A stretch of 64,000 nucleotides of DNA, taken from NCBI GenBank assembly GCA_947168515.1, contig CAMVMF010000003.1, positions 1-64,000 of the forward strand, written 5' to 3'. A program made the position numbers and the translations under genes. The stretch's first letter is position 1, and every line of letters begins with the position of its first letter. A model generated the notes under the pieces. The model worked only from the letters and a program-made list of their open reading frames with translations. It did no database searches and was not told where the DNA came from. Below, piece by piece: positions 36,676 through 56,835 of the stretch. The DNA comes from an uncultured Bacteroidales bacterium. Its GTDB lineage: Bacteria; Bacteroidota; Bacteroidia; Bacteroidales; P3.

Positions 36676-38109
36676 ATGAAAAAGTTTGCTTTCATATTGA
36701 CTCTTATGCTGACGGTGCATGCGGTGCATGCGCAGCGACCCATCACGGTAGTTCCACAGGACAACGTGAAGCTTTCTTGGGGGCTCAAGAACCTGAGTGT
36801 GGTGGATGGCCGGCTCTACGGCAGCAGCAACGGTGTTATGGTAGGGTCCGAAATGTTGGACGGCATGGTGTATATGCTGCGTCCCGACACGCTGGCGCAT
36901 TTCCTCGGCTCCGATTTCAGCTATGTGGTGCGCAATCCGCATGACAGCCTCCTCTATTTCTCGCGCATGGACGCGTCCAACGGCCGCTATGGCCTCTATG
37001 TGCACACACAGGGCCGTGGCCGAAAGAATCGTCAGGTTGATGTCCGTGGCTGGAATATGGCTCTCTATCACCCCACATTCTCCACCGATGGCAATATAAT
37101 GGTTTTCTCGTCGCAGAACAAGGTGGGGCTCGGAGGCTACGACCTCTGGTGCTCTTTCTGGAACGGCAAAAAGTGGTCCAAGCCCCTTAATCTGGGCAAC
37201 ACCATCAATACCCCCGGCAACGAGCTCAACCCCGTTTTCTACGGCAATTACCTTATCTATTCTACCAACCAGCAGCAGAACGGACCAGCATACGACTTCT
37301 ATGCTGTGTATGTCAAGCCGGGTTCCACTATCGATAATATCCTTTTTGGCACTTTCCGTCCCCAACGCTTGCCGGCCCCCATCAACAGTGACAGCAACGA
37401 TGTTGAAATGGCCGTGGACCCTTCGCTTCGGCGAGGCTATTGGATAACCAATCGTGAGGGGTATCAGGAACTCTATTGCTTCGAAGGGCGGCTGGATGGT
37501 GTCATGCTCACCGGCAAGGTGTCCGACGAGAAGGGTCGCCCGGTTCCCCGTGCCGAGGTTACGGTGCTGCGTGCGGGCCGACAAGTCAATACCACCACTA
37601 CTGATGACAAGGGGCAGTACCATCTCTTCGTTCAGCCTGGCGAAGGCTATGAGCTGGCGGTCAGGTGCGATAACTATTTTAACTATTCCACAGTCACGTC
37701 GGCCATTCGATCCGACGAAGGATTTTTGGTGGCCGAGGACCGCCACGATGTCACCCTCTCCTATCTGCCATTTGACCGCATTATGGTCTTTGACCATATC
37801 TATCGGCAAGGGGCAGATGTGGAACTCTCCGAGGACGGCAAGCGTGCACTTTCGCCGTTGGCAGACTTTCTGAGGGATAATCCTCAAGTAAGCCTTAAAT
37901 TGACCCTAAAATGCGACCAAACAACCGATTCGATATTTAATAATATGCTTATTGAGCGTAGAATCAGTGATTTGCGTCAATTCTTCCTTTCGGTGCTGCC
38001 TACAACAGCCCAAATTTCTTTTGAAAATGGTAATTTGGCAGGCGAAAATGAGGCCCTGGGGAGTGGCGAAAACATTATTTTTGCTGTTTTGAGTAGGGGT
38101 GGTAAGTAG
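36676..38109 (+). CDS. PD40/CarboxypepD_reg/OmpA-like secreted protein (PorE-like layout)
   Basis: The 477-residue product starts at MKKFAFILTL with a signal peptide (to VHAQ). Residues about 60-270 have PD40 propeller strands such as FSTDGNIMVFSSQNKVGLGGYDLW. A CarboxypepD_reg-like domain follows (GKVSDEKGRPVPRAEVTVL, about 280-360). The C-terminus has the OmpA-like outline (LSPLADFLRDNP with later RRISDLRQFF) but key peptidoglycan-binding residues look degenerate. Domain order resembles PorE of the type IX secretion system, though no other Por gene is nearby. It follows lon by 7 bp. Confidence 0.75.
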   Translation: MKKFAFILTLMLTVHAVHAQRPITVVPQDNVKLSWGLKNLSVVDGRLYGSSNGVMVGSEMLDGMVYMLRPDTLAHFLGSDFSYVVRNPHDSLLYFSRMDASNGRYGLYVHTQGRGRKNRQVDVRGWNMALYHPTFSTDGNIMVFSSQNKVGLGGYDLWCSFWNGKKWSKPLNLGNTINTPGNELNPVFYGNYLIYSTNQQQNGPAYDFYAVYVKPGSTIDNILFGTFRPQRLPAPINSDSNDVEMAVDPSLRRGYWITNREGYQELYCFEGRLDGVMLTGKVSDEKGRPVPRAEVTVLRAGRQVNTTTTDDKGQYHLFVQPGEGYELAVRCDNYFNYSTVTSAIRSDEGFLVAEDRHDVTLSYLPFDRIMVFDHIYRQGADVELSEDGKRALSPLADFLRDNPQVSLKLTLKCDQTTDSIFNNMLIERRISDLRQFFLSVLPTTAQISFENGNLAGENEALGSGENIIFAVLSRGGK

Positions 38110-38170
38110 TTGTACGATAACGAATAATGCGGTTTGTGGAGGTGGTGAGGAGAAAAAAATGAAAAAAAAA

Positions 38171-38202
38171 TTTGGTCAGTACAAAAAAAAGTAGTACTTT
38201 TG
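38171..38202 (+). promoter_or_regulatory. Bacteroidota-type promoter of tRNA-Pro
   Basis: TTTG (38171-38174), 20 bases, then TACTTTTG (38195-38202) matches the phylum consensus exactly. Start of transcription near 38208, 40 bases before the tRNA. Confidence 0.85.
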
Positions 38203-38247
38203 CAACCGTTTTCGAGAGGATGAGAATCACAAACGAAACAAAATGTT

Positions 38248-38321
38248 CGGGGCGTGGCGCAGTTGGCTAGCGCACTTGCATGGGGTGCAAGGGGTCGAAA
38301 GTTCGAGTCTTTTCGCCCCGA
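38248..38321 (+). tRNA. tRNA-Pro (anticodon GGG)
   Basis: A 74-base cloverleaf. The acceptor CGGGGCG pairs with CGCCCCG, the D stem is GCGC/GCGC, the anticodon stem CTTGC/GCAAG encloses loop ATGGGGT with anticodon GGG, and the T loop is TTCGAGT. The discriminator is A, and CCA is not encoded. It has its own promoter and terminator. Confidence 0.95.
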
Positions 38322-38325
38322 CAAC

Positions 38326-38358
38326 AAAAAAGGATTCGGGAAATCGAATCCTTTTTTT
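38326..38358 (+). terminator. Rho-independent terminator after tRNA-Pro
   Basis: AAAGGATTCG and CGAATCCTTT pair around a 6-base loop and are followed by a T-run. Confidence 0.9.
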
Positions 38359-38448
38359 ATTTAATCATACAATATTCTTTGTTAATATCCGTTATTGGTG
38401 ATATTTGTTTAGTAAAATAAAAGTATTTACAAATTAATATTTTACAAG

Positions 38449-39303
38449 ATGAAAAAGTTTTACATTTTATTGTTCGCCCTGCTTTTCTCTGCAGGTGCAG
38501 TCTATGCTCAGAACGATGATGAGCTCTTGAAGAAACAGCAACAGGAACAGCAAGACCTCCTCAAACAGCAGCAGAAGGAGCAGGAACGCCTCCAGAAACA
38601 ACAACAGAAAGAGGAGGAGCGTTTGGCTAAGGAACAGGCCAAAGAGCAGGAAGCCGCTGCCCAAAAGGAGCAGGACCGCATCAAGCGTGAGCAGGCCAAA
38701 GAGCAAAACGCCATCCGCAAAGAACAGAAAAAAGCCGAGAAGAAGGCTAAACGTCAGGAGAACTACGCCAAGTGGAATCGCAAGCCCAGCTTCACCGCTG
38801 ACCCCAGTGCCACTATCCTTACCGACCGCCGTTTCTATGGTCAGAACAACTATCTCAACGCAGTTGGTTATAATCTGGGTGTCGTTATCGACTATCATCG
38901 GCCCATTGCCAAGCGTTGGGATTGCAACATCGGCTTAGGTTATCGTTTCACCAACTACTACTACAGTCATTTAGATGCAGGAGTTGTTGGATTCGATGGT
39001 AAGGAAGAGGTTCGTTCCTACAGCTCGATTGTCCTGCCCCTCAAGCTCTCCCACATCAATAAAGACAACGACCATGGCTGGTATCTGGGTGTTACTCCTG
39101 GATTCAACTTTGGATTCAACAAGTCTTTGCCCACAGGCTATAGCTTCAATAAATTCCGTTGCGATGTAGCCATTGGCACCCAGAGCCGCTGGCTTATCTT
39201 CTCTCCTGGTTTCGAAGTCTATTTCAACCTCCTGCCCACCTATAGTTCCAATATTCAGAACGAGGGCAAGATTCACGAATTCGGCATTCGTTTCAACCTG
39301 TAG
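38449..39303 (+). CDS. Outer-membrane protein with N-terminal coiled coil
   Basis: The 284-residue product has a signal peptide (to VYAQ, residue 21), then about 85 residues of Gln/Glu/Lys-only coiled coil with LLKQQQKEQERLQKQQQKE-type repeats. A beta-barrel-like C-terminal region follows (about 115-284), ending FGIRFNL with the terminal aromatic-hydrophobic pattern of outer-membrane proteins. The coiled coil probably spans part of the periplasm. I do not recognise a named family for the full chain. Confidence 0.75.
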   Translation: MKKFYILLFALLFSAGAVYAQNDDELLKKQQQEQQDLLKQQQKEQERLQKQQQKEEERLAKEQAKEQEAAAQKEQDRIKREQAKEQNAIRKEQKKAEKKAKRQENYAKWNRKPSFTADPSATILTDRRFYGQNNYLNAVGYNLGVVIDYHRPIAKRWDCNIGLGYRFTNYYYSHLDAGVVGFDGKEEVRSYSSIVLPLKLSHINKDNDHGWYLGVTPGFNFGFNKSLPTGYSFNKFRCDVAIGTQSRWLIFSPGFEVYFNLLPTYSSNIQNEGKIHEFGIRFNL

Positions 39304-39326
39304 TTTTTTTAGATCAACTAATATAC

Positions 39327-39353
39327 AAAAAGCCCGGGATACCGGGCTTTTTT
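39327..39353 (+). terminator. Rho-independent terminator
   Basis: AAAAGCCCGG-GATA-CCGGGCTTTT followed by T residues, directly after the coiled-coil protein gene. Confidence 0.9.
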
Positions 39354-39359
39354 GCTATA

Positions 39360-39632
39360 GCTTGTTGTGAGAATGTTTTGCCTAACAACATTGAGGTGAC
39401 AGACACTCAATGAATGGCGTATATCGGGTAAGGAGTAAACTTATTTGCAATGTCTAAAAGGGCATCCATACATTGCCTCTAAGGCAAACTCTCAAGCAAA
39501 TACAGTCGGGGTGTCGGAGTGAAGAAACTCCTCTGGGCTTTCGATTACTGAGCATCGCGAAAGAGGAGATGTCAACCCTCTCAAGATTGAATTAATAGAA
39601 CACATCTTATATGTGCTCTAAAATTTTTTTTG
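39360..39632 (+). ncRNA. Possible structured small RNA
   Basis: This 270-bp gene-free stretch holds several short complementary pairs in order: CATTGAG/CTCAATG (39389/39406), GCAATGT/ACATTGC (39447/39470), GGAGT/ACTCC (39516/39527), CTTTCG/CGAAAG (39538/39558). It ends in CACAT/ATGTG followed by a run of eight T residues (39624-39631). The layout fits an independent RNA with terminator between two genes. I do not recognise the family, and the individual stems are short enough that chance cannot be excluded. Confidence 0.35.
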
Positions 39633-39704
39633 TAGAAATACAATATTATATTTTTATTTGCGTTATATAACTAAAAAAATAATTACAAAATATATTTTAT
39701 AGTT

Positions 39705-40094
39705 ATGAGAGAGTCTGAAAAGAAAGAACTAACCCGTGCTGAGGAGCAGGTGATGCAGGCCATTTGGTCAGTAGGACAAGGTTTTGCCAATGAGATTGTG
39801 GCAGCCATTGAACCGCCCAAACCGGCCTATAACACGATTCTTACTGTGGTGAGAATTTTGGAGAAGAAGGGCTTTGTGGCTCACGAGACTTTCAATAAGT
39901 CCAACAGGTATTACCCATTGATTAGTCAGGAGGATTATGCCACTGGGATGCTGGGCCATTTTGCCAAACACTATTTTGGTTCCTCTTTCCGCAATATGGT
40001 TTCTTTCTTGGTTGACAAGAAGGAGGTAACTATTGAGGATTTGGAGGCGTTGACCAAGTCGTTAGAATCATCTACTAATAATACTGAGTCATGA
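39705..40094 (+). CDS. BlaI/MecI/CopY family transcriptional repressor
   Basis: The 129-residue product has the winged-helix core of the family (LTRAEEQVMQAIWS at the start, KPAYNTILTVVRILEKKGFV about residues 42-61). In known systems the repressor is cleaved after an M56 sensor binds its signal. The stop overlaps the start of the M56 sensor by 4 bp, so the two form the expected regulator-sensor pair. Confidence 0.95.
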   Translation: MRESEKKELTRAEEQVMQAIWSVGQGFANEIVAAIEPPKPAYNTILTVVRILEKKGFVAHETFNKSNRYYPLISQEDYATGMLGHFAKHYFGSSFRNMVSFLVDKKEVTIEDLEALTKSLESSTNNTES

Positions 40095-49586: not shown

Positions 49587-50669
49587 ATGTATTTGTGGGA
49601 ACATAAAGAATGGCCTAAATACAAATGGGATGAGCAGAAAATCAACGAATTGCTTGTGCAAGTGAGGTATCGGCAAGGCAGACTTTTGGGAATGGCAGAT
49701 ACGCTTGGATTCGATGTGAAAAGTCCTGTTGTTCTTGATACAATGACTTCGGACGTCATAAAGTCGTCGGAGATAGAGGGCATAACATTAAATGCCGACG
49801 ATGTACGCTCGTCGGTGGCGTGGCAATTGGGAATAGACCGTGTAGGAGTGCCATCTTCCGACCACTATATTGAAGGGGTGGTGGAGGTGATGTTTGACGC
49901 CGTGCATCATTATGACGATCCTTTGACGCAGGAGCGGCTGTTCCGTTGGCATAGTGCTTTGTTTCCGAATCTCAACCGATTGGCACACATCACTGTTGGA
50001 GGCTGGCGTAAGGGGGATATGCAGGTGGTGTCTGGGCAGTATGGCAAAGAAAAGGTCCATTACGAGGCACCTCCCAGCAAGGACGTGCCCCAGATGATGA
50101 CGGAACTGCTGCAATGGATTAACAGTAAGGAAATAGACCCCGTGCTTAAAGCTGCCATCGCCCATCTGTGGTTTGTCAGCATACATCCTTTCAGCGACGG
50201 TAACGGCCGTTTGGCCAGGACCATCACCGATATGCTTCTGGCCAAATCAGATGCTACGCCCTACCGTTTTTACAGTATGTCGACGCAGATTGCGTTGGCT
50301 CGAAAAGAATACTACGACATACTGGAGCAGACTCAGAAAGGGACGCTCAACATCACCGCGTGGCTTTTTTGGTTTCTTGGCAGGATGATGATTGCTGTCG
50401 ACACTGCAATGAAAGCCATAGAGCGCACACTAAATAAAGCCTCGTTTTGGGAGAACCACCGTCACGTGTCGATGAACGAGCGGCAGACCAAGATGGTCAA
50501 TATGCTGTGGGATGGTTTCGATGGTAAATTGACCTCATCCAAATGGGCCAAAATAAACAAATGCTCTCCCGACACCGCATTGCGTGACCTACAAGACCTT
50601 GTAGCAAAAGGCATTCTTGTCCGCACCGACTCGGGTGGCCGCAGCACCGGGTACGACCTGGCAAAATAG
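49587..50669 (+). CDS. Fic family protein with DUF4172
   Basis: The 360-residue product begins with DUF4172 (MYLWEHKEWPKYKWDEQKI), followed by the Fic core with the intact motif HPFSDGNGRLAR (His200). The inhibitory motif S-x3-E-G is present at SSEIEG (60-65), upstream of the core as in class II Fic proteins, so the enzyme is probably self-inhibited. A winged-helix-like C-terminus ends GGRSTGYDLAK. It should transfer AMP to a target protein. The 3' end is duplicated at 56457. Confidence 0.92.
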   Translation: MYLWEHKEWPKYKWDEQKINELLVQVRYRQGRLLGMADTLGFDVKSPVVLDTMTSDVIKSSEIEGITLNADDVRSSVAWQLGIDRVGVPSSDHYIEGVVEVMFDAVHHYDDPLTQERLFRWHSALFPNLNRLAHITVGGWRKGDMQVVSGQYGKEKVHYEAPPSKDVPQMMTELLQWINSKEIDPVLKAAIAHLWFVSIHPFSDGNGRLARTITDMLLAKSDATPYRFYSMSTQIALARKEYYDILEQTQKGTLNITAWLFWFLGRMMIAVDTAMKAIERTLNKASFWENHRHVSMNERQTKMVNMLWDGFDGKLTSSKWAKINKCSPDTALRDLQDLVAKGILVRTDSGGRSTGYDLAK

Positions 50670-50942
50670 TTATATGATGGAAAGGAGCGCCAAAGTTGAC
50701 GCTCCTTTCTTTGTGGCTTCTTTGTGGCTTCTATGTGTGTTATTATTCTACACATCTTTGGGGCCGCACGGGTTGCCCCTTTCCGTTATGTCGGATTTGC
50801 AATCCGGCATTTGTTATTATCAGGATTTGTAATCCGCCAAGAATCAATTCTGTAATAATTTTTTTGTGGATTGCAAATCCTTATATTAAGCTGCGTCGGA
50901 TTGCAAATCCGCCGCAACGCTGTCGAACATCCGCCGCGACGG
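50622..50942 (+). repeat. Direct repeat copy A: Fic 3' end plus palindromic repeats
   Basis: This stretch is near-identical to 56457-56764. It covers the last 16 Fic codons, the terminator, and palindromes such as CGGATTTGCAATCCG and GCGGATTGCAAATCCGC-type cores, ending in GTCGAACATCCGCCGCGACG. Copy A has a 12-bp local duplication that copy B lacks. Confidence 0.9.
50681..50708 (+). terminator. Terminator of the Fic gene
   Basis: AAAGGAGCG and CGCTCCTTT pair around 10 bases, 11 bp after the stop. A version with compensating changes is found in the second copy at about 56517. Confidence 0.8.
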
Positions 50943-50983
50943 GATTAATACTGCACGTAAGGCCAAGTTGAAATAAGTTATTA

Positions 50984-51688
50984 TTATATTAGATATTCTT
51001 GCCATAGATTTTTATGGGTTTCCCAAAATTTCTCTGGTGAAAATCCTGTGGGACGGTATGTTGTGTCTGTTATCCTAATATCACTCAGCAAATACAACGG
51101 CCAAATCGTCTCCATACGATAGCTCGTATGTCCCAAAACATACCAAACGAAATCTTTCATTACCAATCCTCTTGGTTCAAATAGTTCCTGATGATAAGGG
51201 AAACCAGTTCTTGGATGATGGTAGTATAAATCAACACACTTTTGCTGACGGATGGCATCCATCAGAATATTCACATTCTCTACCCCTGTGGCTTTGCAGT
51301 CGATGTACATATACTTTTTGTTTTCTTCCGAATCCTGCAGCTGCTTCATTGCCGCTGATGTTTCAAAAGCAATTAGAAACGGCATTGTCCAAGGATTGTT
51401 GTTGCTCCGAGGCTTTTCCACCAGCCGATAACGATACCTTCGGTTCTCTTCCGACAATGCTTTCTTCCAAACCTCGTGTTGAAGGCGGTTGACACATTCT
51501 ATCTTGATACCAAACCTGTCTCGGAGTTCTTTCAAATAGTTGTGAAATGTCCGCTTGGGCAGAATATTCTCCATATTCGGTTCATCGACAAGCTTGTCGA
51601 TTAACTGGTCGAATGTGATTCCTGTCTCTCCGGCTCTCCGGAACTGGGCAACCAACCAGGAGAGCATTTCCAAATTTTTGTAGTCCAT
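50984..51688 (-). CDS. WYL domain transcriptional regulator
   Basis: The 234-residue product has an N-terminal winged helix-turn-helix (MDYKNLEMLSWLVAQFRRAG) and a WYL domain at about 110-210 (AIRQQKCVDLYYHHP, then EPRGLVMKDFVWYVLGH). WYL regulators often repress phage-defence genes and respond to nucleic-acid ligands. The start at 51688 lies just after a TATCTTTG box. It is divergent from the 176-aa gene and 0.8 kb upstream of the nuclease operon. Confidence 0.88.
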   Translation of the reverse strand: MDYKNLEMLSWLVAQFRRAGETGITFDQLIDKLVDEPNMENILPKRTFHNYLKELRDRFGIKIECVNRLQHEVWKKALSEENRRYRYRLVEKPRSNNNPWTMPFLIAFETSAAMKQLQDSEENKKYMYIDCKATGVENVNILMDAIRQQKCVDLYYHHPRTGFPYHQELFEPRGLVMKDFVWYVLGHTSYRMETIWPLYLLSDIRITDTTYRPTGFSPEKFWETHKNLWQEYLI

Positions 51689-51709
51689 CTGATGTATTGT
51701 TTCTCGCTG

Positions 51710-51717
51710 CAAAGATA
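51710..51717 (-). promoter_or_regulatory. -7 box of the WYL regulator promoter
   Basis: TATCTTTG on the minus strand, 21 bases before the WYL start codon. No exact TTTG is seen at -33. Confidence 0.55.
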
Positions 51718-51876
51718 CAATAAATAACTGATATGTAAAATAAATGTTATACAAAAGTTAATGTATTTCGCATACTATTGAGATAAATTGTTGATAAATA
51801 GTAGAATGTATATTATGCTAAAAGTTGTTGATTGAGGTTCTTCGTATTATATAAGCAGGCACAAAACTTAAACAAT

Positions 51877-52407
51877 ATGAATACCTGCAAAGAAAACAAC
51901 CTTCAAAAGAACCTCGACGAGGCCATCGCCAACGCCGCCAACGCGTGCAAAGTTATCTGCGCCATCAACACCCGCTTTGCCCAGCACGGTATCCCTATGC
52001 TTGTGATTGGCGAGAGGCACAGTATTATGGGCGAGAAAGGCAACCGCACCCTCTGCATCGACCGCGACGACCTGGCACTCCTCAACGCCATTAGTATGCG
52101 CGAGACATTGAAAATCGCTGACCTAGCCGTCAAAATCAAGCAGCGCGGCAGCTACCCCTACCCTCCTATCAATGTTATCTTCAGCGGCGACGCCCGACGG
52201 GGAATGTATTGGGCGAATCTGCTGGATGAGTTGCTGGCCCTCCACCTCAAAAGCCTGCCCTTCTCCTCGCTCTACAGCGGCAAGCACTACGACGGCAAGG
52301 GACTCTTCATCATCGCCTCCGACCTGCCGGTGGCCGAGTTGAAAAGAGGCTTCCCAAAACTGTACTCGGATGTCATACTCTTGGAGAATACACCTTCAGG
52401 AGTATGA
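51877..52407 (+). CDS. Unknown 176-residue protein
   Basis: Starts MNTCKENNLQKNLDEAIANA with an amphipathic helical N-terminus, then alpha/beta segments such as IPMLVIGERHSIMG, PPINVIFSGDARRGMYWANL and GLFIIASDLPV. No signal peptide or membrane segment; no family recognised. It is divergent from the WYL gene and upstream of the nuclease operon, so it may be part of the same island unit. Base composition is GC-richer than the next gene. Confidence 0.65.
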   Translation: MNTCKENNLQKNLDEAIANAANACKVICAINTRFAQHGIPMLVIGERHSIMGEKGNRTLCIDRDDLALLNAISMRETLKIADLAVKIKQRGSYPYPPINVIFSGDARRGMYWANLLDELLALHLKSLPFSSLYSGKHYDGKGLFIIASDLPVAELKRGFPKLYSDVILLENTPSGV

Positions 52408-52449
52408 CTTCCAAATGTCTGCTCTTTAGGAAGTCATCTGTTAGAAATA

Positions 52450-52481
52450 TTTGGTTGATTGAAAATAAAGTTGTACCTTTG
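52450..52481 (+). promoter_or_regulatory. Promoter of the nuclease-like operon
   Basis: TTTG (52450-52453), 20 bases, then TACCTTTG (52474-52481) is a perfect phylum-type promoter. Start near 52488 leaves only about a dozen bases of leader before the ATG at 52501. Confidence 0.85.
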
Positions 52482-52500
52482 CACACACAAAAAAACTGTT

Positions 52501-53535
52501 ATGAAACACCGTACTCAAATTTCCAACAAAGAGGTGGTTAGGGAAACCCTTCGCTTGTTGAATGAAAATCCAGAATGGAAAGACCGCTATGCACAGTATG
52601 CAATGGCCATCAAAAAAAACAGTGAAATTTACGGAAGCAACTCCAGAAAATTTCACTTAAGCAAACCGCTATACGTTTACAGTAGTATTACAAAAGCAAA
52701 AAATGACAGTTCTACGAGTACCTTTGATATGCGTTTTGCTGGTCAAAGTGTTGGTGAGATAACCGTAAATAAGAAAGGTTTGGTATCATTAAAGGTAAGT
52801 GACCAGCAAGCAAAATATGCAAAAGTGCATTTTGGTTATAATAGAGCAGAGGGCTTTTCCGTTGAATGGCGTACTCAAATAGCTTCTGAATATCGGAGTC
52901 TTTTTTCGACTCAAAAGTCCACAAAAGAAACTAAAATCCATAGCCAAGAACATCGAATTGAAAACTGGATGCTTGCAGAGTTCGCAAAAAAGACCCGAAA
53001 AGAAGGCAAATTACTCTGCAACATTCAGCCCGTAAGGTTGGGTGGTAAATTTTTCCAGTTAGCCACCCCTCTTTCAGCTAGCAATCACGGAGAGAAGCCC
53101 AAATATTCGTCTCAAAACGGTGGAGGTATTGACATACTGGCCAGAGTGAATCATACAATATACAGAAGGGATAACAGGTTTGCCGTAATTGAATTGAAAG
53201 ATGAGAATAAACCGGAGGAATCACAAGCAATGACAATACAACAGGCGTTAACCTATGCTACATTTTTGGCGTGTCTACTGCGTAGTGACAGTGGCAACGT
53301 ATGGTGGAATATTCTTGGAAGAAGCAAAGATGTACCTGCCGATTTAATAATTGATGCTGTCACTCTTATGCCTAACGAAGGTGATTCAGAAGAGGGTTTA
53401 ATGGATGCAATAAAGATTGACGAATTAAATGTCACACTAATGCCCTACACGTTGTACTACAAACCGGACAAAAATGGAAATCCAATGTCTTTTGGAGGTA
53501 CACTTAAGGAAACGCTAGCAAATAAAGGACAATGA
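52501..53535 (+). CDS. PD-(D/E)XK-like nuclease-fold protein
   Basis: The 344-residue product has a C-terminal stretch matching a PD-(D/E)XK core: GGGIDILARV (Asp211), FAVIELKDENKP (Glu231, Lys233) and a following helix TIQQALTYATF (Gln247/248). An upstream helix (HRIENWMLAEF) supplies a possible acid. The N-terminal 150 residues are unrecognised. It is the first gene of a three-gene overlapping operon. Codon use is visibly more AT-rich than in flanking housekeeping genes, suggesting transfer. The nuclease call is from motif reading only. Confidence 0.65.
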   Translation: MKHRTQISNKEVVRETLRLLNENPEWKDRYAQYAMAIKKNSEIYGSNSRKFHLSKPLYVYSSITKAKNDSSTSTFDMRFAGQSVGEITVNKKGLVSLKVSDQQAKYAKVHFGYNRAEGFSVEWRTQIASEYRSLFSTQKSTKETKIHSQEHRIENWMLAEFAKKTRKEGKLLCNIQPVRLGGKFFQLATPLSASNHGEKPKYSSQNGGGIDILARVNHTIYRRDNRFAVIELKDENKPEESQAMTIQQALTYATFLACLLRSDSGNVWWNILGRSKDVPADLIIDAVTLMPNEGDSEEGLMDAIKIDELNVTLMPYTLYYKPDKNGNPMSFGGTLKETLANKGQ

Positions 53536-54818
53536 CCATCACCATCCATCGTGGAATCAACCAGATTGGCGGGTGTATCACGGAGATTGCATCCGCTAAG
53601 GGCTCAAAAATACTGATTGACCTCGGCCACAATCTACCGGAGGGGGAGAACCGAGACAATGACCCTTTGGAGAAAGCCGAAAACATCGACCCCATCCTCA
53701 AGAGGGTGGACGCCATCTTCTATACCCACTCCCACGGCGACCACGTGGGATTTGAGTCCTATGTGGCATCTAAAAATATCCCGCAGTACATAGGAAAACT
53801 CTCAAAGAAACTGCTGCTGCTTCAACGTGGCAATATCCTCTATTACCATCCAACCCCCGAATTGAGAGCCAGTAAGAAAGCCATCGAGAGTTTCATCACA
53901 TACGAGGCCACCAAACCCGTGGAAGTCGGTGATATTGTAGTTACTCCCTACTATGTCAGCCATTCCTCCCCAGATGCCTATATGTTTGTGGTTGAGTGCG
54001 ACGGACATACCGTGTTGCACACGGGAGACTTCCGTGACCACGGCTATCGTGGCAAAGGTCTGGAACCTACTATCCAAAAGTACATTGACCCTCGCCACAT
54101 TGACGTACTTATCACAGAAGGCACAATGCTGAATCGTGACGATGGTCGAATGATTTCTGAAGAACAGCTGTGTAAGCAAGCCACCAAGCTGATGCAGAAA
54201 TACAAGTACGTCTTCTTTATGTGTACTACCCAAGATGCCGACCGAATTTCTTCCATCAACCACGCCACAGACACCGTGAGAGGCCGTCGGATGTTAGTGG
54301 ACGGATACCAGTACAAGGTGCTTGAAGCTTTTGAAGAAGAATTGGGGCAAGGGAAGTTCTTCCGCTACCAATATAATAGAAAACACTATTTCCGTAAAGA
54401 CTGGAACTACGTACTTGATAAGGACTGCAAGCGTGGTTTCACGATGCTGGTTAGAAACAATCGAAACATCAAAAAGAGCCTCGATGAGATGATGCCTTTG
54501 CTGGACAAAGAGCAATGCTGCTTGGTATATTCACAGTTCAAAGGTTATTTAGACCCCAATCACTCGGCTTTTATGCAGAGTGCTTACGACTTTATCCACA
54601 CCTACAACTGGCATTTCGAGTATCTTCACACTTCTGGTCACGCTTCGCGTGAGACACTGGAGATGGTGTGCAAAAAGGTGAATCCCCAACTGGCCATTAT
54701 CCCTATTCACCGTGAAGCACAAAGTGATTTCCGAGAACTCAACTTGTCAGAGGAACTGAAGAACAAGGTGATTACAAAAAGCACTTCAATTGAGGATGTG
54801 ACAATCGTCGTTAAATGA
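53532..54818 (+). CDS. Metallo-beta-lactamase/beta-CASP family hydrolase (RNase J-like)
   Basis: The 428-residue product has the metal motif THSHGDH (His66, His68, Asp70, His71), HTGDFRDHG for later ligands, and SGHASRE and PIHREAQS in the C-terminal part, as in beta-CASP nucleases. It is shorter than housekeeping RNase J (about 550 residues), lacking the C-terminal extension. Start overlaps the previous gene by 4 bp and the stop overlaps the next gene by 4 bp. Likely an RNA or DNA nuclease acting with its operon partners. Confidence 0.85.
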   Translation: MTITIHRGINQIGGCITEIASAKGSKILIDLGHNLPEGENRDNDPLEKAENIDPILKRVDAIFYTHSHGDHVGFESYVASKNIPQYIGKLSKKLLLLQRGNILYYHPTPELRASKKAIESFITYEATKPVEVGDIVVTPYYVSHSSPDAYMFVVECDGHTVLHTGDFRDHGYRGKGLEPTIQKYIDPRHIDVLITEGTMLNRDDGRMISEEQLCKQATKLMQKYKYVFFMCTTQDADRISSINHATDTVRGRRMLVDGYQYKVLEAFEEELGQGKFFRYQYNRKHYFRKDWNYVLDKDCKRGFTMLVRNNRNIKKSLDEMMPLLDKEQCCLVYSQFKGYLDPNHSAFMQSAYDFIHTYNWHFEYLHTSGHASRETLEMVCKKVNPQLAIIPIHREAQSDFRELNLSEELKNKVITKSTSIEDVTIVVK

Positions 54819-55420
54819 AGATTCTCCATCTATCCGACACACACGGCAAACATAGAGAACTCACCGATATGCCATCCGCTGACATACTGGTGCATAGTGG
54901 CGATTTTACCTTGGCGGGCGGTGATATGGAAGCTCTTGACTTTATTGAATGGCTCTGTGATTTACCTTACAGACATAAAATATTCATTGCAGGAAACCAC
55001 GATGACTGTATGCTGGATGCCTCATTGGAAGGGTTGCCGAAAGATGTGCATTATCTTTCCGATAGCGGTATCACAATTGATGGAATATCATTCTATGGTG
55101 CTCCGATGTTTGTAGTATTCGATGGCGAGGAATTGAAAGAGGTAGAACACTACGAACAAATACCAGACAACACTGATATTTTAATAACCCATCGTCCTCC
55201 GCTTGGCATTTTGGATAGCATCGACGACCACATACACTATGGCAGTTCCATCCTACTGGACAAGGTTTCCAATATAAAGCCAAGAATGCACCTTTTTGGA
55301 CACGTTCATTCTGCTTACGGAACAATTGGTTGGAAAGGGATAACTTTCTGTAATGCAAGTCTTACTGATTGGAAATACGACATCCAGTATTCTCCTCAAT
55401 TATTTGAAATAAAATTATAA
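54815..55420 (+). CDS. Calcineurin-like metallophosphoesterase
   Basis: The 201-residue product has the full set of metal motifs: LSDTHG (Asp8, His10), VHSGDF, AGNHDD, a THRPP histidine segment and FGHVHSAYG. The layout resembles the MPPED/UDG-type small phosphoesterases. Third gene of the operon, overlapping the beta-CASP gene by 4 bp. Substrate could be a nucleotide, cyclic nucleotide or RNA end, not readable from sequence. Confidence 0.87.
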   Translation: MKILHLSDTHGKHRELTDMPSADILVHSGDFTLAGGDMEALDFIEWLCDLPYRHKIFIAGNHDDCMLDASLEGLPKDVHYLSDSGITIDGISFYGAPMFVVFDGEELKEVEHYEQIPDNTDILITHRPPLGILDSIDDHIHYGSSILLDKVSNIKPRMHLFGHVHSAYGTIGWKGITFCNASLTDWKYDIQYSPQLFEIKL

Positions 55421-55611
55421 GTTTGAATTGGATATGGTTGAATTGGTCTTGCCATTATCTGCCATCTCTGAGAAAGTTTCAAATAATACGTTTGAAATAA
55501 CCCCCTCAGCTAAAAATGAAGATGGGGAGAAAAGTGGGGGGGGTAAATCAATTATCAGATAAATAGTAAGATATTCCGTTTTTGTTAAGTATCGATGACG
55601 ACACTGTCACT

Positions 55612-55896
55612 CTATGCTCTCCACTTTGCTCTGAACTCATCACTGTTGTGAAGCCTTTCGATAATCTCAACAATCTTCTTGTCGAAAGACACCAATAACT
55701 CATCGTGTCCATCTTCTTCATCAAAAGTATCATCACTAAACCTAATTGAATAATGGTTATATATTGGTTTTGATAATGGATGCTGCATGATGTCAAAAAG
55801 AACCTTGGTGGCTTTCTTGAACAGGGCAGGATTCGACTTCTTCCACTTCCGCAACGTCTTGTCGGCAGCCTTAGAGTATTCGGCCTTGTACATCAT
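55612..55896 (-). CDS. RelE/ParE-like toxin, unusual C-terminus
   Basis: The 94-residue product starts MMYKAEYSKAADKTLRKWKK and continues KATKVLFDIMQHP, a pattern typical of RelE/YoeB-type toxins. The second half (SIRFSDDTFDEEDGHDELLV) is acidic and lacks the basic YSRRI-type catalytic strand expected there. It may be a diverged or recombined, possibly inactive toxin. Start overlaps the upstream antitoxin stop by 4 bp. Confidence 0.6.
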   Translation of the reverse strand: MMYKAEYSKAADKTLRKWKKSNPALFKKATKVLFDIMQHPLSKPIYNHYSIRFSDDTFDEEDGHDELLVSFDKKIVEIIERLHNSDEFRAKWRA

Positions 55897-56147
55897 AAGC
55901 TGTCGAAGTATTGTTGCATCTCCTCGGGAGTGCTGCACACTACGGTCTCGCCATCGGCAGACTCCTTACGGGCTTTCCTGATTCTGGTGCGGAGCGCAGG
56001 GGTGATAGTGTTATCAAGGCGCACCACATGCACCGAGGCAACTCCTCGTATCAATAGCAAAGCCTTCCTAATCTCGGACAATGCTGCACCTTCCTCAAGT
56101 GTAACAATCACTTGGTATGATTTCGGTGTAGATGTTCCTGTATCCAT
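55893..56147 (-). CDS. Probable antitoxin paired with the RelE-like toxin
   Basis: The 84-residue product has a beta-alpha-beta-like N-terminal half (SYQVIVTLEEGAALSEIRKA, GVASVHVVRL) and an acidic C-terminal tail ending STPEEMQQYFDSL, fitting toxin-binding antitoxins. Context (4-bp overlap with a toxin-like gene) supports the call. It is the first gene of the pair. Confidence 0.68.
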   Translation of the reverse strand: MDTGTSTPKSYQVIVTLEEGAALSEIRKALLLIRGVASVHVVRLDNTITPALRTRIRKARKESADGETVVCSTPEEMQQYFDSL

Positions 56148-56456: not shown

Positions 56457-56764
56457 CGCACCGACTCGGGTGGCCGCAGCACCGGGTACGACCTGGCAAA
56501 ATAGTTATATGATGAAAGGAGTGCCAAAGTTGACACTCCTTTCTTTGTGGGTTCTATGTGAGTTATTATTCTACACGTCTTTGGGGTCGCACGGGTTGAC
56601 CCTTTCCGTTATGCCGGATTTGCAATACGGCATTTGTTATTATCAGGATTTGTAATCCGCCAAGAATCAATTCTGTAATATTTTTTTTGTGGATTGCAAA
56701 TCCTTATATTAAGTTGCGGCGGATTGCAAATCCGCCGCAACGCTGTCGAACATCCGCCGCGACG
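56457..56764 (+). repeat. Direct repeat copy B: Fic 3' end plus palindromic repeats
   Basis: Near-identical to 50622-50942, including the last Fic codons with the stop, a terminator with paired compensating changes (GGAGTG/CACTCC), and the GGATTTGCAATCC palindromes. The Fic coding part is not preceded by the rest of a Fic gene. Confidence 0.9.
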
Positions 56765-56835
56765 GGAAATCCGCCGCAACGCAGTCGAACATCCGCTGCG
56801 ACGGAATATTCCACGCAGAATATGCGGAGAATCGA
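56765..56835 (+). repeat. Extra palindromic repeat units and Fic promoter-region motif
   Basis: A further unit (GCAGTCGAACATCCGCTGCG) follows copy B, then CGCAGAATATGCGGAGAAT at 56814-56832, identical to the Fic transcription-start region at 49534. Confidence 0.8.

Follow-up and report, generated by a model that had tools for sequence, protein, structure and literature searches.

The DNA analysed here, called the window below, is the whole of a 64,000-nucleotide (nt) stretch from an uncultured Bacteroidales bacterium of the lineage P3 (GCA_947168515.1, contig CAMVMF010000003.1, positions 1-64,000 of the forward strand). It contains a locus in which a divergently oriented WYL-domain regulator is followed by a gene for an unassigned protein, U176, and by three genes, termed NUC, MBL and MPE, that encode a predicted PD-(D/E)XK-fold protein, a beta-CASP metallo-beta-lactamase-fold protein and a calcineurin-like metallophosphoesterase (Table 1). 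An earlier note on this DNA had presented the last three genes as a candidate defence operon behind a phylum-type promoter in AT-richer DNA. The coordinates confirm that these genes overlap by 4 bp each, and the promoter ahead of NUC is an exact match; the pattern TTTG-N(17-21)-TANNTTTG is found at four places in the window where 0.86 would be expected, and none of 100 shuffles reached four. The G+C content is 42-45% in 2-kb intervals starting at 50001-56001 and mostly 49-57% elsewhere in the window, although other dips exist (e.g., 42.9% at 38001-40000). The regulator and the unassigned 176-amino-acid (aa) gene described in the note were both recovered upstream. The Pfam query for the WYL protein spanned 50984-51682 and was short by two residues at the N-terminus. 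U176 matches no family above a curated cut-off and has a ratio of nonsynonymous to synonymous substitution rates (dN/dS) of 0.24-0.32. A reading of U176 as a degenerate DnaE fragment was rejected (hhalign probability 0.1 and 0.3%).

Table 1. Features of the locus in the window, and recurrent passenger genes at related loci (L numbers denote loci in other genomes or plasmids)
Feature	Position	Strand	Remark
WYL-domain regulator	50984-51688	-	Pfam WYL 1.7e-7; divergent, constant left end in the genus
U176, unassigned protein	51877-52407	+	frame member in the genus; homologues in WYL-headed genus loci
Bacteroidetes-type promoter, TTTG-N20-TANNTTTG	52450-52481	+	exact pattern match, ahead of NUC
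NUC, predicted PD-(D/E)XK-fold protein, 344 aa	52501-53535	+	occupies the exchangeable slot
MBL, beta-CASP metallo-beta-lactamase-fold nuclease-like protein, 428 aa	53532-54818	+	start codon is the exchange seam
MBL 5' end	53532-53581	+	extra 24-59-nt copies in four relatives' loci; window without extra copies
MPE, calcineurin-like metallophosphoesterase, 201 aa	54815-55420	+	MPPED2-like; PADLOC candidate PDC-S10
Left direct repeat	50622-50944		fic 3' end and intergenic repeat
Right direct repeat	56457-56768		partner of the left repeat across the block
DnaE palm/finger fragments, 476-545 aa	L012:7574-9211, L013:6610-8052, L071:11843-13273, L099:5604-7229, L102:5566-7188, L113:6842-8479		slot region
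GyrA/ParC coiled-coil-like small proteins, 111-129 aa	L068:7445-7834, L071:11459-11806, L013:8424-8813, L024:8306-8641		
U157, unnamed small family (GIFW...PRGR)	L069:10259, L070:9543, L113:10287, L100:7865, L154:4549, L156:6256, L157:4408, L161:4549		

The first protein had been proposed to be nuclease-like on the basis of D211, E231 and K233. These residues are present, and the E / D / ExK / Q motif residues of PD-(D/E)XK proteins occur with the core fold and are invariant across 72 sequences. The fold was called from VIA-align rows, in which unrelated proteins also appear lower down, together with the motif. None of the Pfam, NCBIfam or PADLOC models matched NUC at E 1, and Foldseek found no PDB match at E 0.001. 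The invariant motif and a confident structure model support a PD-(D/E)XK nuclease-type fold, and nuclease activity is predicted.

MBL carries the HSHGDH motif, from which the note had assigned it to the metallo-beta-lactamase/beta-CASP proteins, at residues 66-71. This assignment is borne out by Pfam Lactamase_B_2 (3e-10) and RMMBL (1.2e-4; 22.4 bits against a cut-off of 21.6) and by PDB relatives that include RNase J and EF2904. The residues D30, H66xH68xD70H71, H144, D166, H370 and H393, which we take to have the usual motif roles, are 98-100% conserved in 51 sequences, a set in which the window and a few genomes are entered twice. MBL is a beta-CASP metallo-beta-lactamase and falls outside RNase J, scoring 58.8 bits with TIGR00649 against an NCBIfam cut-off of 400 and being, with 428 aa, shorter than the listed RNase J chains (553-705 aa). 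Its PADLOC match, to PDC-M48B, is weak (E 0.012). MPE contains the LSDTHG and GNHD motifs that had led to its description as a phosphoesterase, and the description is upheld by Pfam Metallophos (8.9e-12, with DxH and GNHD) and by similarity to MPPED2 (PDB 3rl4, 6.1e-32), which place it among the calcineurin-like MPPED-type proteins. It also matches the PADLOC candidate PDC-S10 at 4.7e-74 over residues 1-200 of 201. All three genes are under purifying selection, with dN/dS of 0.08-0.13 in six pairs.

The genetic association of NUC and MBL is close to certain. A pattern scan of an 84,980-species genome collection returned 94 stretches, 44 of which contain NUC relatives, and one viral contig, the single match in viral_contigs, brings the total to 45 loci. 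These come from Bacteroidota, Bacillota, Alphaproteobacteria, Omnitrophota, Planctomycetota and others, and are mostly metagenome-assembled. Four of them (L012, L013, L024 and L042) are from genomes that bear a second name in the same-genus set (G009, L098 or G529, L096 or G517, and L075 or G029, respectively). An MBL homologue is found at 40 of the 45 loci, at a distance of up to 3 kb in 39 and of up to 150 bp, or fused, in 30. Where at least 2 kb is available on both sides (32 loci), MBL lies within 3 kb in 30; it is 4.9 kb away in L014 and absent from L032. MBL follows NUC on the same strand at 28 of the 40 loci and lies upstream of it at six; the two are convergent at five and fused at one. 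The fusion, a single metagenome-assembled case (L025), is one frame of 714 aa in which the NUC profile covers residues 4-325 and the MBL profile residues 330-714. Of 120 same-genus genomes, 14 have a strong MBL match, each a single one, which amounts to about one per 20 Mb; chance neighbourhood of NUC and MBL is accordingly estimated, from this one genus, at well under one case in 45. The count drops three weak matches (E 2e-4 to 9e-4), a partial gene in G006 and a short second match in G529. Pairwise distances of NUC and MBL correlate (r 0.57 over 38 pairs, leaving out the fused pair, pairs more than 3 kb apart and short fragments), a value reached in none of 2000 permutations and partly due to species descent.

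A plasmid search started from MBL alone gave ten records at 26-31% identity, nine of which were examined; H7 was left out, having the organism, length and coordinates of H6. A PD-(D/E)XK-type protein is encoded beside MBL or within ~0.6 kb in seven of the nine. The profile of NUC2, the other PD-(D/E)XK-type protein of the slot described below, matches those of L154, L156, L157, L159 and L160 at 1.9e-6 or better and that of L158 at 0.0036, and L153 is counted by its motif only. None of the MBL-neighbour plasmid proteins matched the NUC profile. L155 has WYL and MPE and no PD-(D/E)XK-type gene was seen there; L161 has only a U157 homologue. On a Cereibacter plasmid (L159), 4-bp overlaps join a NUC2-type gene to MBL and MBL to a gene annotated as a metallophosphoesterase. 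This phosphoesterase does not match the MPE of the window at E 1e-3, and the trio may therefore have arisen on more than one occasion. NUC and NUC2 were not established as homologues (profile comparison E 0.21). The NUC profile compared at 0.0016 with six plasmid sequences, at 0.003 with those plus NUC2 and at 0.37 with the reversed mix. The two proteins agree in the order of their motifs and may also share G-[QA]-S-V.

Thirteen loci were compared within the genus, genomes with two names being counted once. MPE is present at all 13 and WYL at 12, and the slot between them is filled by different PD-(D/E)XK-type genes. WYL homologues 88-95% identical to that of the window head the locus in G005, G517, G034, G009 and G029. 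Within the genus, the frame of the locus consists of WYL, U176, MBL and MPE, and NUC is its replaceable member. DNA alignments show that homology to the window resumes at 53529-53532 in nine of 12 same-genus relatives, and the MBL start lies at 53532. G005 is 89% identical over WYL and U176 to 52411, has no homology in NUC and is 88% identical from 53529; G029 matches at 90-91% up to 52494 and again from 53532; G517 is 91% identical over WYL and 92% from 53531; and in G461 homology restarts at 53520. In G009 and G529, which have a window-like NUC, homology is continuous through NUC. The NUC proteins of the window and G009 are 98% identical (synonymous divergence, dS, 0.07), while the same pair has dS of 1.06 in MPE and 0.33 in U176, which indicates that NUC moved recently between different frames, on its own. 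MBL of this pair is only 55% identical, with the most divergence at residues about 210-330, presumably the beta-CASP part. The window and G029 show the opposite, with 93% identity in MBL and 35% in NUC. The idea that the three genes belong together holds in part: the coupling of NUC and MBL over phyla and the trio on the Cereibacter plasmid agree with it, whereas the trio does not form a fixed unit, NUC being replaceable and eight of the 22 MPE-bearing genus genomes having no MBL match. Two of these eight, G034 and G036, have WYL, U176 and another nuclease-like gene.

Extra copies of the MBL 5' end are found upstream of the gene in four of the 13 genus loci, L096 (G517; 44 and 44 nt), L098 (G529; 59 and 34 nt), L071 (G008; 24 nt) and L069 (G001; 47 nt); the remaining nine have none. 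The short second MBL match in G529 (query residues 3-25) coincides with such a copy. Control segments along MBL had an outside match in one of 208 cases. The copies occur in each of the three loci that have two or more PD-(D/E)XK-type genes and in one of the ten others (Fisher 0.014, with classes defined after the data were seen and with the 24-nt copy weak). No copies are present in G027 and G502, which have a nuclease-like gene and U157. In G517 and G001 the reading frame of NUC2 passes through a copy. The extra copies look as if cassettes had been stacked at the seam. Outside the genus none of 33 MBL genes has copies, which limits the observed stacking to this one genus.

Other genes recur in or near the slot. 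Fragments of DnaE (polymerase III alpha) of 170-545 aa are found there, and the aspartates that we take to be catalytic are replaced in six of the seven long copies aligned (the seventh being L024); their dN/dS is about 0.2. Shorter versions of 166-202 aa lie near NUC or MBL in L018, L020, L028, L029, L040 and L046. In L105, L106 and L107 a row of WYL, a REase-ARP gene (PF22558), a gene for a 397-aa protein and MPE directly adjoins a full-length dnaE, which is a possible source of the fragments. On the Butyrivibrio plasmid pCY186 (L153:7492-10253) WYL, a nuclease-like gene and MBL are followed by dnaX and by a gene whose 480-aa product has a match to the DnaE fragments (E 1e-3 or better). For the GyrA/ParC-like small proteins, Pfam DNA_topoisoIV gave E 0.0088 (L068) and 1.4e-4 (L071), both below the cut-off. 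U157 has eight members in the open reading frames searched; they lie close to MBL, both in genus loci and on alphaproteobacterial plasmids, and dN/dS is 0.03 in two pairs with saturated dS. In four proteobacterial loci (L045, L048, L049 and L052) a gene for an AAA ATPase of 672-689 aa precedes NUC at a distance of 7-11 bp, and MBL is convergent; the IetA-like call was made for L048 and extends to the other three by BLAST cluster. Sigma-70-like proteins of one BLAST cluster (Pfam for L016) lie near NUC at L016:7853-8416, L028:7685-8557 and L029:1609-2034, and Sigma70_r2 was found in four of 149 sampled neighbours of NUC loci outside the genus set.

The direct repeats reported in the note do bracket the block. 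They are ~0.3 kb long, and their matching segments (61, 47 and 227 nt) are 98, 91 and 96% identical, respectively; the 61-nt segment includes the 3'-terminal 48 nt of fic. Some of the repeat sequence is dispersed, with 72 matches in the genome to a 324-bp query. A palindromic element around GGATTGCAAATCC, at 50784-50919 and 56607-56742 of the window, is also dispersed in the genome. A candidate empty site in G460 is weak because its left match is 64 nt at 81%, to a dispersed repeat. The note had placed toxin pairs on both sides, and this stands for the left flank, which has a PIN-domain protein (PIN_3, 4e-18) with a small partner and a DUF4172-Fic protein; the right flank has a single weak YafQ-like match (E 0.022). 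The fic gene (49587-50669 of the window) adjoins the locus. In G464 (L151) a fic gene 92% identical occurs without the locus within the 9.5 kb examined, and in G517 fic (L096:1519-2727) is ~5.7 kb away from it.

A defence role of the locus is plausible, with about an even chance. The WYL gene, the patchy occurrence, the match to PDC-S10, the diversity of the nucleases, their mobility and the IetA-like AAA genes in four proteobacterial loci point toward it. NUC matches no PADLOC model at E 1. For the genus flanks, 78 of 105 case genes were drawn at random and compared with all 78 control genes; genes below 130 aa, above 700 aa or standing first in a stretch were left out. Among 25 of 56 families listed, the case flanks contain AbiEi, SoFic and PDC-S01/S02/S04/S13; among 25 of 38 listed, the control genes contain PDC-S01/S02, PD_DExK and DEDDh. 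Pfam families of the same 78 flank genes are mainly metabolic, with Fic 2, YhcG_C 1 and HipA_C 1 among 25 of 100 families listed. Neighbours of loci outside the genus set (149 of 230 genes, a case set without a control) include WYL 5, mad3 4 and IetA 3.

The fold of NUC with intact motifs, the coupling of NUC to MBL and the constant frame with its replaceable nuclease slot are computed here, and from them we infer catalysis, a substrate (DNA or RNA), any complex, defence and an order of steps. The preferred reading, to which we give slightly less than an even chance, is that the locus is an innate nucleic-acid-degrading accessory system, most likely aimed at phages or mobile elements of other kinds, in which the cutting subunit can be exchanged and its nuclease partner stays constant. 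The WYL protein would repress the operon until a ligand or damage is sensed, NUC would recognise and cut foreign or marked nucleic acid, MBL, a beta-CASP protein as are RNase J and SNM1, would degrade from the ends made by NUC, and MPE would take off end phosphates or break down released nucleotides. Several results weigh against this reading. MBL is without the extra C-terminal length of RNase J. Five of the 45 NUC loci have no MBL in the DNA available; four of these have less than 2 kb on one side, and L032 has ~10 kb on both. NUC had no tblastn match in 50,697 phage and 72,556 plasmid records, and NUC types combine freely with MBL types, which counts against a closely fitted complex. The genus flanks show no clear excess of defence families. 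In a more elaborate version, which is rather unlikely, the locus would be an array-building immune module: nucleases from a diverse PD-(D/E)XK pool would be added at the MBL start codon, each leaving an MBL 5' stub, with the newest next to MBL and older ones stacked upstream, and MBL would be the common effector for any nuclease aboard. The inactive DNA-polymerase and gyrase fragments would then serve as bait for phage proteins directed against the replisome of the host; a bait role of these passengers is a guess.

The same enzymes could form a stress or damage module, with WYL as the sensor of DNA damage or of RNA ends and with enzymes that cut, trim and dephosphorylate the cell's own nucleic acid for repair or recycling, and with no special anti-phage role. 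Damage responses, too, are under the control of WYL proteins (PafBC), MBL and MPE are similar to RNase J and MPPED2, respectively, and the flank families listed are mainly metabolic. NUC is rare and patchy (three of 61 relatives and one of 395 class genomes, its own genome counted in both), and housekeeping repair would not need a nuclease swapped for other families at one point; we regard this explanation as unlikely. An exchangeable nuclease with constant neighbours is also a pattern of polymorphic toxins, and Fic and PIN genes are close by, so NUC-type proteins could be toxins that MBL or U176 restrains or processes. Given the conservation of the motif residues in its homologues, MBL is more likely to be an enzyme than just an antitoxin, and the NUC-MBL fusion, both gene orders and convergent pairs also speak against a toxin, which is very improbable. 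The seam at the MBL start codon with its 5' copies, the mixing of types and the direct repeats around the block would fit selfish or passive cassettes: recombination at the 5' end of MBL would carry the nuclease genes about, and these would share no function with MBL or MPE. Against this, NUC-MBL pairs occur in further phyla, in other gene orders, fused and on plasmids, and dN/dS is low in both NUC and MBL; it is the least probable of the alternatives.

If the preferred reading of an innate system with an exchangeable cutting subunit is borne out, NUC and MBL would be an undescribed enzyme pair whose partnership extends over several phyla and whose first member has eluded the family models. 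The fixed frame, the replaceable nuclease slot and the stubs at one seam would show that the cutting subunit of an innate system is changed by gene exchange. The note knew of no named system with this gene set, and no description of a PD-(D/E)XK and beta-CASP gene set was found in the excerpts of open-licence PubMed Central full text, including PMC12839542 and PMC12458937. Among known proteins, the RNase J and beta-CASP ribonucleases have the same motifs and RMMBL domain as MBL, and RNase J is among its PDB matches, whereas MBL is shorter, scores below the TIGR00649 cut-off and is accessory and patchy. Shedu acts as a single protein; SduA is not among the 50 rows listed for NUC, which has no Pfam match at E 1. 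PADLOC holds PDC-S10, matched by MPE, as a candidate without a named system. In G015, G484, G014 and G462 a REase-ARP protein (PF22558) shares a stretch with WYL and MPE; these loci differ in having another nuclease family, and no MBL is labelled in those stretches. The trypsin-MBL modules are a further comparison. No protease family was found in the ten window proteins scanned, the relatives' loci being without a dedicated protease scan, and the locus was not assigned to the HamM type. As described in the excerpts of PMC12799240, HamM, a ComEC-type-like MBL activated by a fused trypsin-like protease, occurs with protease-HamA in Hachiman, and such modules are also present in AVAST, Lamassu and DRT. 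The locus differs from them in combining a beta-CASP MBL with a PD-(D/E)XK partner, and resembles them in that an MBL-fold nuclease stands beside a second enzyme, in modules that different systems have recruited (PMC12799240).

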